This document shows positions 15,861 through 19,620 of a stretch of DNA of 41,612 nucleotides, piece after piece. A program made the translations under genes and the position numbers. The stretch is from a virus. The notes under the pieces are model-generated. The model was not told the DNA's origin, searched no databases, and worked only from the letters and a program-made list of their open reading frames with translations. The DNA lies in the IMG/VR virus record IMGVR_UViG_3300022690_000108, positions 1 through 41,612 of that record. One strand, 5' to 3'. The first letter of the stretch is position 1; the number at the start of each line of letters is the position of its first letter.

Positions 15861-16056
15861 ATTCGCCTAGAGCTATAAACTCGCTCACCTTCAAATCTAA
15901 CAATTCACAGATACGCTTTAAGTTCTTACTGCTAATTGAACCGCCAGTTATCCAGTTACTTACTTGCTGTTGTGATGTTGGGATCATCTCCGCAATCATC
16001 TTGTTGTTCATTGGGCTTCTAGCTAATGCCACCTTTAACGATATTCCTAAGTTCAT
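15859..16056 (-). CDS. Cro/XRE-like HTH DNA-binding protein
   Basis: 65 residues from ATG 16056, with AAGAGG in front. A helix-turn-helix is visible: NNKMIAEMIPTSQQQVSNW, then SISSKNLKRICELLDLKVSEF, matching XRE/Cro-type proteins. It is the first gene of the leftward operon that continues with the O-like and P-like genes, the place of cro/cII in lambda. It most likely binds the 16057-16216 control region. No partner CI-type repressor is found. Confidence 0.8.
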   Translation of the reverse strand: MNLGISLKVALARSPMNNKMIAEMIPTSQQQVSNWITGGSISSKNLKRICELLDLKVSEFIALGE

Positions 16057-16112
16057 ATACACCTCTTAATGTTGGGCTCTAACAAAGCTGCTCGAGACTA
16101 GGTATGATTCAA

Positions 16113-16140
16113 AGTATACGCCGATAATATAAAAGTACAA
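16113..16140 (-). promoter_or_regulatory. Leftward promoter for HTH-O-P operon
   Basis: On the minus strand, TTGTAC (16140-16135), a 16-base spacer and TATACT (16118-16113) form a good sigma-70 promoter about 57 bases upstream of the HTH start codon. Confidence 0.6.
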
Positions 16141-16158
16141 GTTTATTGTGTATTTATA

Positions 16159-16187
16159 TTGCTTTTAAGTTTTAGGTGTATTAATAT
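16159..16187 (+). promoter_or_regulatory. Rightward early promoter
   Basis: TTGCTT (16159-16164), 17 bases, TAATAT (16182-16187). The -10 is inside a perfect 12-bp palindrome ATTAATATTAAT (16180-16191), which could serve as an operator. It would drive the 16217-19954 genes. Confidence 0.5.
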
Positions 16188-16216
16188 TAATTAAACTTAA
16201 CTAGGAGATAGAAAAA

Positions 16217-16633
16217 ATGAATATAGAAAGGCCAGAGGTTTCAAAAGAAACAATACTTTCAGCATCAAAATCAATAGCTGTAAAGTTAGATGGTTGCGCT
16301 GAAGAAATAGCTTTTTGTTATTATTCGCACATCGACGGTTACGAGCTAGCAAAAAAACTTGAAGAAAAGTACGACTGGATTATAGATTTACAGGTAATTG
16401 AAGAGTTAGAGGAATTGCAATGGAAGGTAGAATCAATTCACAAAAAAGTTTGCATGCAATGGGTTATAGATAGCGACATAAAGCCACCACTTGAAATTGG
16501 AACAGCCATAAAGGAAGGTATTATTAAGGGTATTTACGATCATGGCGCGGCGATGTACACGGTGACAAAATATGGTGAAACAATGAAAAATAGACACCAA
16601 ATAATAAAATTCGAAAATGCAGTTGCAGTTTAA
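16217..16633 (+). CDS. Unknown early protein
   Basis: 138 residues, with a clean AGGAG before the ATG. Alpha-helical (AKKLEEKYDWIIDLQVIEEL, then EELQWKVESIHKK) with acidic bias. First gene rightward of the control region, the place of an early regulator in lambdoid phages, but no HTH is seen. Confidence 0.7.
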   Translation: MNIERPEVSKETILSASKSIAVKLDGCAEEIAFCYYSHIDGYELAKKLEEKYDWIIDLQVIEELEELQWKVESIHKKVCMQWVIDSDIKPPLEIGTAIKEGIIKGIYDHGAAMYTVTKYGETMKNRHQIIKFENAVAV

Positions 16634-16660
16634 TTTCAACAACGAGAGAGGATTTAAAAG

Positions 16661-16831
16661 ATGGATAAATGTAGCCCTGTAGAAATGAGGAAAAACTTAG
16701 ATACTGTTGAGGCGTTGAGAATTCACGGTATTGATTTTGTGGTTATACCTGCAAAAGATGCGTTACATAAAGCGCAGTTAATAGCGCAAGGTCAGGCTGT
16801 GTTTGATGAGCTATGCCAAGAGGTAAAGTAA
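16661..16831 (+). CDS. DUF1382-family phage protein
   Basis: 56 residues. MDKCSPVEMRKNLDTVEALR followed by HGIDFVVIPAKD follows the pattern of the small lambda protein family DUF1382 (M.K.SPVE.R......A...IGI.FV.IP). Function is unknown in the family. AGAGAGG precedes the start. Confidence 0.7.
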   Translation: MDKCSPVEMRKNLDTVEALRIHGIDFVVIPAKDALHKAQLIAQGQAVFDELCQEVK

Positions 16832-16832
16832 T

Positions 16833-17075
16833 ATGAGTGAGTTAACATAATTTCAAAAGTTTGAGAAGTGCACAGAAGTAAAGCAAGCGAAAGATCGAGT
16901 TACTGTTGATTGTGTAAAAGGATTGTGGGGCGTTGATGCTCCGACATTAGAACAGGCTATAGATGAAGCTAAGCACTACTTTTTACAGTATCTTAGCGAT
17001 GGCGAATACAGTTCCATTGTTGGCGGTAAAAACGTAGTAGAAACGCTACTAGAACAAGGAGTAAACAAGTCATGA
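16833..17075 (+). pseudogene. Early gene with an in-frame ochre codon at codon 6
   Basis: Reading from ATG 16833 gives MSELT, then TAA at 16848-16850, then an uninterrupted 74-codon frame (QKFEKCTEVKQAKDRVTVD, then GLWGVDAPTLEQAIDEA) that ends in an ATGA overlap with the next gene. The position, spacing and coupling are those of a real gene, so a point mutation (for example CAA to TAA) probably inactivates it. A sequencing error or restart at a downstream non-ATG codon is possible. Confidence 0.65.
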
Positions 17076-17464
17076 GTGAATTAAAAGTAGGTAGTAAGTT
17101 AAATATGGTACACGTCGCTCTAAATACAGACATGAGCATCATGAAGATAGAAATAGAGGAACGCAAGGTTATCGGTGTTAGTGATGTTTATTATTGCCTT
17201 GATGATGATTACTTTACGACGATAGCAAGAACAAAGTCTTTTGAGTTCTGTCACGCAAAAATGGAACAAGTAAGAATCGGTGAAGAAAAAAGCAAAATAT
17301 CAATTGAGTTATTCGGTAAATTTAGAATTAGAATTTACAGTACGTCTAGCTTAAAGGTTATCGAAAATAGAATTAACCGAGAGTTTAAAAAGTGGATAGA
17401 TGATAAAATAGGTGTTTACGGTATTGGTAGGGACGTAGTAATTAAACTTGAAAAAGGAGCATAA
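17072..17464 (+). CDS. Unknown early protein
   Basis: 130 residues, ATGA overlap with the interrupted gene. Beta-alpha style sequence (SKLNMVHVALNTDMSIMKIE, then SKISIELFGKFRIRIYS), with a C-terminal helix of basic residues. It starts with the same MSEL as the interrupted gene. The promoter of the putative small RNA begins inside its last codons. Confidence 0.7.
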   Translation: MSELKVGSKLNMVHVALNTDMSIMKIEIEERKVIGVSDVYYCLDDDYFTTIARTKSFEFCHAKMEQVRIGEEKSKISIELFGKFRIRIYSTSSLKVIENRINREFKKWIDDKIGVYGIGRDVVIKLEKGA

Positions 17465-17475
17465 AAGCGTATAAT
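17448..17475 (+). promoter_or_regulatory. Strong promoter of the putative pseudoknot RNA
   Basis: TTGAAA (17448-17453), a 16-base spacer and a perfect TATAAT (17470-17475). No open reading frame starts within 390 bases downstream of the terminator, so the expected transcript (start near 17482) is non-coding. Confidence 0.7.
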
Positions 17476-17481
17476 TAGTAA

Positions 17482-17622
17482 TGCAGCTGTGAGAGGTTGC
17501 TTGAAAATGGTAATGAACATTAAAGGTTATTTGTATAAGGTCTTAGACGCGTAGGGTTAAAACTCTCACTCGTTTATTACCATCCTGAAATGTTTAGGGC
17601 TTTATACACATAGCCTTTTTTT
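17482..17622 (+). ncRNA. Putative small RNA: H-type pseudoknot plus terminator
   Basis: Two inverted repeats interleave. Stem A: GTGAGAG (17489-17495) with CTCTCAC (17563-17569). Stem B: ATGGTAATGAAC (17507-17518) with GTTTATTACCAT (17572-17583), 11 Watson-Crick pairs and one G-U. The A-B-A'-B' order is that of an H-type pseudoknot with loops of 11 and 44 bases and a 2-base junction that would allow coaxial stacking. A terminator follows 12 bases later and a consensus promoter precedes. No ORF of meaningful length lies inside. The class is not one I recognise. Confidence 0.65.
17596..17622 (+). terminator. Terminator of the putative small RNA
   Basis: AGGGCT (17596-17601) pairs with AGCCTT (17612-17617, one G-U) around a 10-base loop, running into seven T (17616-17622). 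Confidence 0.75.
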
Positions 17623-17687
17623 GTGTCTTATTGTAAAGTTAACATCGCCCAGCAACACGCCAGCGACCGGATTCGGATAAGACACAA
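17621..17687. repeat. 11-bp perfect inverted repeat
   Basis: TTGTGTCTTAT (17621-17631) and ATAAGACACAA (17677-17687) are exact complements around a 45-base, GC-richer loop that has its own short stem (TCGC with GCGA). It starts in the terminator T run, so it might be an alternative structure, or a separate hairpin in read-through RNA. GATAAGAC recurs exactly 200 bases later (17876-17883). Confidence 0.6.
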
Positions 17688-18012
17688 CCCCTTTCAAAGC
17701 TCCTCACTAACTGTCGTCATAAACAATGGATTATAGACCCGATCCTTAATACTTCTAACTTAGCCGTGAAGTATTTGATAAAAGAATTAAAAGCTTGGAA
17801 AATCATTTTATAGGTTAGGAGATTACGGATTCTTCTTTAACAAAACCGATGAGCCTTATAAATGTTACCCGTCCTGATAAGACGTTAAAAGATGTTCGAT
17901 AAAATTGTTTATGTATGACTAGCTAATAATAGATTAAGTATACGTCCCAAGGGTTACCAAGTAACCGGGTCATTAAGACAGTTACGTTTAAATTTTAACA
18001 ACGGAGATTACC
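17688..18012. other. Non-coding stretch with hairpins before the endonuclease gene
   Basis: No credible ORF on either strand. Two hairpins are visible: AATACTTC (17748-17755) with GAAGTATT (17768-17775), and GGTTAC (17952-17957) with GTAACC (17961-17966) around CAA. A weak promoter-like TTGTTT and TAATAG pair with 16-base spacing lies at 17905-17932. The stretch may be untranslated leader of the endonuclease, or remains of an inserted element. Confidence 0.4.
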
Positions 18013-18579
18013 ATGCGAAGACTACTTTACGGCGTTGGTGTTAATGATGCTGATTATATTGTGAAGCCAACAATTGACGGCAAGCAGGTAGTGTGTCCTT
18101 ATTACAGGAAGTGGCAAAGCATGCTTACTCGTTGTTATTGCGCTAAGTTTCAATCTGAATATCCTACTTATATTGGATGCACATTAGTAAAAGAGTGGTT
18201 GATATTCAGCAATTTCAAAGCTTGGATGATTAATCAAGATTGGCAAAATAAAGTGCTAGATAAGGATATATTAGTACAAGGAAATAAGCGCTATTCACCT
18301 GAAACCTGTTTATTTGTTAATCCAGCAATTAATTTATTATTAATCGACAGAAAAGCAAAAAGAGGTTTATATCCAGTTGGGGTTTGTTTTTGCAAGCGAA
18401 ATAATAAATTTCAAGCAAATATAAGCGTAAACGGCAAGGTTGCATATTTAGGTTGTTACACATCACCAGAATTAGCACATGAAGAATATAAAAAAGCCAA
18501 GTATGAGTTAATAAAACAAGTAGCACTTGAGCAAAAAGAACCATTAAGGTCGGCCTTATTGAGATATACAATAATCTAA
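18013..18579 (+). CDS. HNH endonuclease-like protein with AP2-type DNA-binding end
   Basis: 188 residues. CPYYRKWQSMLTRCY, then YPTYIGCTLVKEWLIFSNFK, then KVLDKDILVQGNKRYSPETC form the known pattern of phage free-standing endonucleases (Y..W..ML.RCY...P.Y.GC...W..F..F...LDKD...GN..YSPETC). The C-terminal PVGVCFCKRNNKFQANISVN and LGCYTSPELAHEEYKKAK is an AP2-like module, which binds DNA. Such genes move as selfish homing elements. It is preceded by the 550-base non-coding region, consistent with an acquired insert. Confidence 0.8.
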   Translation: MRRLLYGVGVNDADYIVKPTIDGKQVVCPYYRKWQSMLTRCYCAKFQSEYPTYIGCTLVKEWLIFSNFKAWMINQDWQNKVLDKDILVQGNKRYSPETCLFVNPAINLLLIDRKAKRGLYPVGVCFCKRNNKFQANISVNGKVAYLGCYTSPELAHEEYKKAKYELIKQVALEQKEPLRSALLRYTII

Positions 18580-18634
18580 CCAAAGCAAGCGTGTCTAAGA
18601 GACAACTATAATTAAATTTTAAGGGAGAGTAAGA

Positions 18635-18835
18635 ATGAGTAAATATAATTTCACAGTAGATTGTAAAAAAGTTTCAGTTGAATACGCCGCAGGTAATTAT
18701 CTAGTGGAGGTTTCTATTGAAGACGTAGAGCTTGACGATATCATTACAGAGATTGGAACCAATAAAGTTTTAGACCACTTTTGTCACGAAGATATAGCTC
18801 AATACGTTTCAGATAATGATATTGAGATTAGTTAA
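18635..18835 (+). CDS. Unknown acidic early protein
   Basis: 66 residues, preceded by AGGGAGAG. Beta start (KYNFTVDCKKVSVEYAAGNY), then acidic helices (EDVELDDIITEIGTNKVLDH). No motif recognised. Confidence 0.65.
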   Translation: MSKYNFTVDCKKVSVEYAAGNYLVEVSIEDVELDDIITEIGTNKVLDHFCHEDIAQYVSDNDIEIS

Positions 18836-18861
18836 CATCAACAAACAGAGGATATAAAAGA

Positions 18862-19167
18862 ATGAGTGAAGTAATAATTAAATTCGAAACTAGAGAGTTA
18901 GAGCTAATTAAAAATTTAACCTACTACAATCACGTTATACACAAAGTTAAAGGGAGTAAGTTTTGCTTTGATCATATTAAAGAGATTTACGATGATGTTA
19001 GTGATAGTCCTATGTATGAATATGGAGTAGTGGAGGATGGAAAGTTTAAGTGTTTATTTTCTGGTGAAGGTGATCCGATTCCAGAAGGACAAGAAAGTAC
19101 TGGCGGTGTTTACGTTAATACTTATATCCACTGCCCTGAATATTTAAACTTAAATAAATCCAAGTAA
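18862..19167 (+). CDS. Unknown early protein
   Basis: 101 residues with GAGG before the ATG. Reads as beta-rich in the middle (MYEYGVVEDGKFKCLFSGEG), with Cys and His scattered but without a paired C-x2-C. No family recognised. Confidence 0.62.
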   Translation: MSEVIIKFETRELELIKNLTYYNHVIHKVKGSKFCFDHIKEIYDDVSDSPMYEYGVVEDGKFKCLFSGEGDPIPEGQESTGGVYVNTYIHCPEYLNLNKSK

Positions 19168-19193
19168 CTATATAAGATACAAGAGGAATAGAA

Positions 19194-19445
19194 ATGGAAA
19201 TAGACAGAGAAAACGAAAAGATGCTTTACGATATGCTTATAAAGGCCTTTTATGGTTATAGATTGCATTTAAATAACGAGCCTACGCCAAGTATGGATAA
19301 GTTCGAGGAGATGGCATACCGTAACTATCATATGCTGCCATCAGATCATACTAAGATTGAGTTGAACTTTTTAAGGCCAACGATAGATAGTATTGTTGGT
19401 CAGATTTTAAATAAACCAATTAACAAGCACATAAACAAGGCATAA
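19194..19445 (+). CDS. Unknown early protein
   Basis: 83 residues with AAGAGG before the start. Helical (ENEKMLYDMLIKAFYGYRLH, then MDKFEEMAYRNYHMLPSDH). No function recognised. Confidence 0.62.
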   Translation: MEIDRENEKMLYDMLIKAFYGYRLHLNNEPTPSMDKFEEMAYRNYHMLPSDHTKIELNFLRPTIDSIVGQILNKPINKHINKA

Positions 19446-19449
19446 GAAT

Positions 19450-19620
19450 ATGAATAATACGGCAGAGTTTGAATTCAATGTGGGTGATTCGGTTTTTGAT
19501 GATATTCAAGGTGGAAATATTGAGGTTGTAGGGCAATATAGGAGTAATGGTATGAATAGCTACGAATGCACCACACCAACAGGTTGCACAGTTTACAGAA
19601 CGGAAAATGATTTAAAATAA
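19450..19620 (+). CDS. Unknown small early protein
   Basis: 56 residues starting five bases after the previous stop. FEFNVGDSVFDDIQGGNIEV, then GQYRSNGMNSYECTT looks like a small beta-barrel of the KOW/SH3 type. No family recognised. Confidence 0.55.
   Translation: MNNTAEFEFNVGDSVFDDIQGGNIEVVGQYRSNGMNSYECTTPTGCTVYRTENDLK

Follow-up and report, generated by a model that had tools for sequence, protein, structure and literature searches.

A predicted folded RNA with a conserved pseudoknot carried by dozens of Vibrio and Pseudoalteromonas phages

Comparison of related sequences indicates that a folded RNA of about 500 bases is carried by dozens of Vibrio and Pseudoalteromonas phages, and one copy lies in the window, i.e., the whole 41,612-nucleotide stretch of viral DNA analyzed here (IMG/VR record IMGVR_UViG_3300022690_000108; the parts of the RNA locus are on the plus strand). 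With moderate confidence, we propose that the unit first noticed in this window forms the 5′ domain of a larger structured RNA, ~500 nt long, that extends from ~17482 to ~17980 and acts in trans as a scaffold for the phage. An earlier note had taken the unit for a compact, self-contained RNA of about 140 nt. Those coordinates cover roughly the first third of the RNA locus, and a linker and a second structured domain follow in all relatives examined except BT-1011. The note also considered the RNA undescribed, which agrees with our results, as we found neither a matching Rfam model nor, in a literature search, any paper on such a Vibrio phage RNA. Judging from the sequences, the 5′ domain is a real and conserved RNA structure, and the sources searched contain no description of it.

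With positions 17300 to 17750 as the query, a distant blastn search returned a single record, Vibrio phage phiV208, which aligned exactly over the unit at 79% identity and in which the match is intergenic. Searching from phiV208 led to 37 Vibrio phages, and the use of other members as queries added more; the Pseudoalteromonas phage relatives include HS5, HS2, H105/1, and BS5. Pattern scans of viral contigs contributed further loci, four of which (L029, L031, L035, and L037) are closely related to the window. An arrangement in which the promoter is followed by the 5′ domain, the linker, and the 3′ domain is conserved at approximately 30 loci from viral contigs and from phages of Vibrio and Pseudoalteromonas. 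A plasmid search for the family gave no match, and short-pattern matches in L050 (a Flavobacteriales genome contig), L028, L030, L032 to L034, L036, and L052 were rejected as chance matches without the structure. In one viral contig, IMGVR_UViG_3300027828_000049, the 5′ domain occurs in two copies (L040 and L045) that differ in their S1 sequences (see below) and in their 3′ domains.

The 5′ domain (17479 to 17625) is recognized by a covariance model, R1, at 85.4 bits (E value = 1.5e-14); R1 was built from helices P1 and P4 only, with neither S1 nor P2, and with the window left out. The two interleaved inverted repeats reported previously are both at the places given for them. One, S1, is a 7-bp repeat of GTGAGAG (17489 to 17495) and CTCTCAC (17563 to 17569), and the other, P2, is a 12-nt repeat of ATGGTAATGAAC (17507 to 17518) and GTTTATTACCAT (17572 to 17583), with 11 of 12 positions complementary. 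The 5′ arm of S1 is itself the loop of a hairpin, P1 (17483 to 17500; GCAGC...GTTGC, with an 8-nt loop), and S1 is therefore predicted to be a loop-loop helix with the loop of P4. The latter helix, absent from the earlier note, is a 27-nt inverted repeat (17522 to 17548 and 17592 to 17618; 78% complementary) that runs into a T-run and encloses a 43-nt loop containing the 3′ arms of both S1 and P2. The strand order in the window's class is thus S1, P2, P4, S1′, P2′, P4′, so that any two of the three helices cross each other. The crossing of S1 and P4 persists in class II loci, where S1 encloses P2 or a local hairpin takes the place of P2; R1 also detects these loci, weakly, at the expected places.

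Relatives keep the pairing of the 5′ domain and not its sequence, beyond what is expected by chance. Across 11 relatives, P1, S1, P2, and P4 together are paired in 92.4% of cells, compared with a shuffled mean of 81.3% and at most 57.6% in partner-slid controls, and their covariation score is 0.364 versus 0.178 (0 of 500 controls). These counts come from a MAFFT alignment (A3) of 11 relatives that excludes the window, L029, and L031; in A2, which covers every class I sequence, S1 of the window group was misaligned. Among the individual helices, S1 is 100% paired, and three of its pairs carry double changes; P1 is 97.7% paired, with one double change; P2 is 97% paired, with double changes in 6 of 10 pairs; and P4 is 86.7% paired, with double changes in 6 pairs. 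Family-wide, there are 17 distinct S1 pairs (e.g., GTGAGAG/CTCTCAC, GTGGTAG/CTACCAC, GTAGGAG/CTCCTAC, GTCGTGT/ACACGAC, and GTCGAGT/ACTCGAC), in which 6.76 of 7 positions pair with their own partners and 4.27 with swapped partners (0 of 20,000 permutations), the segments having been cut by hand with the pairing in view. The alignment counts and R1, which is blind to S1 and P2, are for this reason the less biased tests. The folding stability of the unit also exceeds that of 200 of 200 shuffles (z = −3.8). The fold of P1, S1, P2, and P4 is therefore supported by covariation, and the compensatory changes in both stems that the earlier note had proposed to look for do occur in S1 and P2. Its H-type pseudoknot is genuine in that S1 and P2 cross, that both also cross P4, and that the crossing helices covary; the architecture is more complex than was described, combining the P1 hairpin, the S1 loop-loop helix, P2, and the long P4.

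A further candidate helix, P3 (17517 to 17526 and 17584 to 17593; ACATTAAAGG/CCTGAAATGT), would occupy the base of P4, with which it shares a GGG, and might serve as an antiterminator. It has a counterpart in L041 (AGTAATTTGGG/CCCCGAGTTACT) and is 86.7% paired with little covariation, so its sequences make an alternative to the P4 base a possibility.

Upstream of this fold is a sigma70-type promoter, TTGAAA (17448 to 17453) and TATAAT (17470 to 17475) separated by 16 nt, which overlaps the 3′ end of the upstream open reading frame (ORF; 17072 to 17464). The promoter claimed in the earlier note is thus present: it matches 11 of 12 consensus positions, is the top-scoring site within 16000 to 19500 in a consensus scan, and is retained in the close relatives L029, L035, and L037. 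Promoter-like matches in the scanned stretch are no commoner than in shuffles (15 versus 13.8), and the element by itself is therefore suggestive of promoter use. In class II and Seahorse-like phages (L004, L005, L007, and L008), the promoter region upstream of TATAAT shows strong conservation of an inverted repeat around TTTGCA (CCCACC...GGTGGG or CCCCACT...AGTGGG), which is possibly an operator. As the note had stated for the unit, coding capacity is lacking, with no ORF of >37 amino acids within 17470 to 18012. An HNH endonuclease gene (phrog_953; 18013 to 18579) lies directly behind the RNA locus, and HNH, Orf172, or homing endonuclease genes occupy the matching place in several relatives.

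The sequence behind P4 would be the end of the RNA according to the earlier note, which placed an intrinsic terminator here. The T7 run is present (17616 to 17622) and a stem adjoins it, and the order of promoter, RNA, stem, and T-run is that of a small RNA ending at an intrinsic terminator; however, the stem is the long-range P4, and a terminator scan found no compact local hairpin at T7. The T-run after P4 is nearly universal among the relatives, and the T-run with its ATTGCC tail also stands behind canonical hairpin terminators in the same phages. In HS5, the fold is kept and the T-run is absent.

Directly after the T-run, relatives have real tRNAs, a stem (P5) closing a tRNA-sized element, or a short spacer. 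Linker tRNAs for Trp, Arg, Gly, Met, and Ser occur across L004 to L006, L014, L015, L043, and L044; they begin at the end of the T-run with no promoter of their own evident by eye, and transcription must therefore pass the T-run. ARAGORN called no tRNA in the window, where the linker (17623 to 17685) holds only a tRNA-like stem, P5 (GTGTCTTA/TAAGACAC; 17623 to 17630 and 17678 to 17685). The corresponding stem in phiV208 is GTGTCTG/CAGACAC; between the window and L029, P5 shows one compensated double change, and its innermost pair is broken in L029. L001 (6127 to 6228) and the linkers of L031 and L041 contain tRNA-like elements with a GGTTCGA T-arm-like hairpin and a 7-bp acceptor-like stem that ARAGORN did not call, and L031 and L041 have a second such element behind the first linker.

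The region from 17623 to ~17980 thus comprises the linker and the 3′ structured domain (17700 to 17980), which has compensated pairs of its own; in the relatives, this second domain spans ~300 nt, and BT-1011 (L012) is the sole case among those examined that has a 5′ domain without it. The window and L029 are 86% identical over the aligned downstream region, and many of the positions that differ belong to compensated pairs, with eight compensated double changes downstream of T7, including the one in P5. All four pairs of hairpin H1 (17728 to 17731 and 17742 to 17745) are compensated, hairpin H2 (17748 to 17755 and 17768 to 17775) has two compensated double changes, and a long-range pairing (17736 to 17741 and 17966 to 17971) has one. 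This long-range pairing is found again in 3′ domains of other types (8 distinct pairs; 5.62 of 6 positions with own partners versus 3.82 with swapped partners; 12 of 20,000 permutations, with segments cut by hand), and in the class A 3′ domain of other phages, 19 of the 34 predicted pairs show double changes. Covariation supports at least three helices of the 3′ domain. The linker and 3′ region of the window are modestly stabler than shuffles (z = −1.8) and have no match in phage records, and the 3′ domain of the window therefore rests on L029 and on analogy. In the loci examined, a 3′ domain is invariably found behind a 5′ domain, and although 5′ and 3′ types re-assort between phages, their order is kept.

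We propose that transcription starts near 17482 and can reach ~17980 as a single transcript, in which the P1 loop would pair with the P4 loop through S1 and P2 would join the upstream segment to the P4 loop. P4 and the T-run resemble a leaky or controlled intrinsic terminator, and partial termination there would yield two products, a short form of ~140 nt and a read-through form that also includes the tRNA or tRNA-like linker and the 3′ domain. Both forms are likely, because the T-run tail is like that of terminators, yet the tRNAs and 3′ domain have no evident promoter, HS5 lacks the T-run, and in L041 the 3′ domain is closely followed by a terminator-like hairpin. That hairpin suggests that the L041 locus is one transcription unit, and it is absent from the consensus terminator scan because its stem uses part of a T-run. 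By analogy with proposals for GOLLD and ROOL, the long form most likely acts in trans, with the folded RNA serving as a scaffold or particle, and it may form oligomers through S1. We speculate, as an extrapolation from those RNAs and with considerable doubt, that the family represents a new RNA-only particle, or cage, held together by an intermolecular P1-P4 loop-loop helix, with tRNAs in the linker and no sequence relationship to GOLLD or ROOL.

The same observations could be read as a stand-alone regulatory small RNA of ~140 nt that ends at T7, with the linker and 3′ domain as separate neighbors. The unit from promoter to T-run is complete, the T-run is nearly universal with a tail as in true terminators, BT-1011 has the 5′ domain alone, and the re-assortment of types suggests that the two domains may be separate units. 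We nevertheless consider this reading unlikely, given that tRNAs and a 3′ domain without an evident promoter of their own lie downstream, that HS5 dispenses with the T-run, and that the 3′ domain was found only behind a 5′ domain. The antitoxin-like RNA or decoy suggested in the earlier note found no support in any of our results.

Regulation in cis is likewise improbable in our judgment, though P4 adjoins the T-run and the competing P3 shares its GGG: S1, P2, and P4 would then form a switchable terminator (attenuator or antiterminator) governing transcription of the tRNAs and 3′ region and of the genes that follow, in a layout similar to lambda pR′-6S RNA-tR′. Many loci do lie upstream of terminase or capsid genes, but downstream genes vary widely (HNH, methylase, phosphatase, and tailspike), the next genes in the window encode RecT and an exonuclease and are not late genes, and the next gene block is set apart from the locus in L008, L022, L027, and L041, where a terminator-like hairpin lies between them together with a new promoter-like site. 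Such varied downstream genes and separating elements favor action in trans over a simple late-gene leader. Very improbable is a part of a mobile intron or homing element, in which a ribozyme-like RNA would accompany the HNH endonuclease encoded at 18013; such endonuclease genes are immediately downstream here and similarly placed in several relatives, but other genes take that place at most loci, no Rfam intron family matches, and the locus is intergenic with its own promoter.

There are few large structured RNAs in phages, and what the best-known examples, GOLLD and ROOL, do is not known. The RNA described here occurs in cultured Vibrio phages (NF, phiV208, Seahorse, VnaS-L3, and the V. breoganii and V. 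lentus collections), so that knock-out, probing, and cryo-EM are directly feasible. If the proposed scaffold or cage is correct, RNA particles with linker tRNAs arose independently more than once in phages; if the switchable terminator is correct, the triple-crossing pseudoknot is an unusual regulatory fold.

Rfam searches with the unit, at gathering thresholds and relaxed E values, gave chance matches only, and none of the Rfam families, including the group I and II intron and HEARO models, matched ten relatives (E value of ≤1) or the window stretch (E value of ≤5); the GOLLD model (RF02032) found nothing at an E value of ≤10 in seven records (the window and six phage records). In the late leader of lambda (pR′-6S RNA-tR′), a strong promoter, a short RNA, and a terminator precede the late genes. 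Many relatives share this layout, but the family differs from it in its conserved pseudoknot, embedded tRNAs, and 3′ structured domain, and in some relatives a terminator-like hairpin stands between the locus and the next genes. Phage ICP1 makes an abundant noncoding transcript of ~800 nt, whose length its authors liken to those of GOLLD and ROOL (PMC7567579). It resembles the present RNA in coming from an ORF-less space of a Vibrio phage, and R1 found nothing significant in that region (L051, 10098 to 11108, minus strand; best score, 6.8 bits). ROOL is phage-borne, lies near tRNA islands, and has multiple pseudoknots and an unknown function (PMC12286853); our family shares the phage setting, nearby tRNAs, and multiple pseudoknots but matches no Rfam model at the E values given above. 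GOLLD has separate 5′ and 3′ domains, a variable linker able to hold tRNAs, and kissing loops (PMC12286853). The family RNA is shorter (about 500 to 700 nt versus >800 nt), and whereas GOLLD has a universally conserved 3′ region and a less conserved 5′ region, here the 5′ domain is common and the 3′ domain is of several types. Because GOLLD and the other Rfam large-RNA models do not match, we file the RNA as a new family that may work like the GOLLD kind and not as a member, the likeness lying in a large phage RNA with a layout of two domains that evolve separately, a variable tRNA-holding linker (tRNAs lie in or beside the RNA in L004, L005, L006, L014, L015, L043, and L044), and predicted loop-loop contacts.
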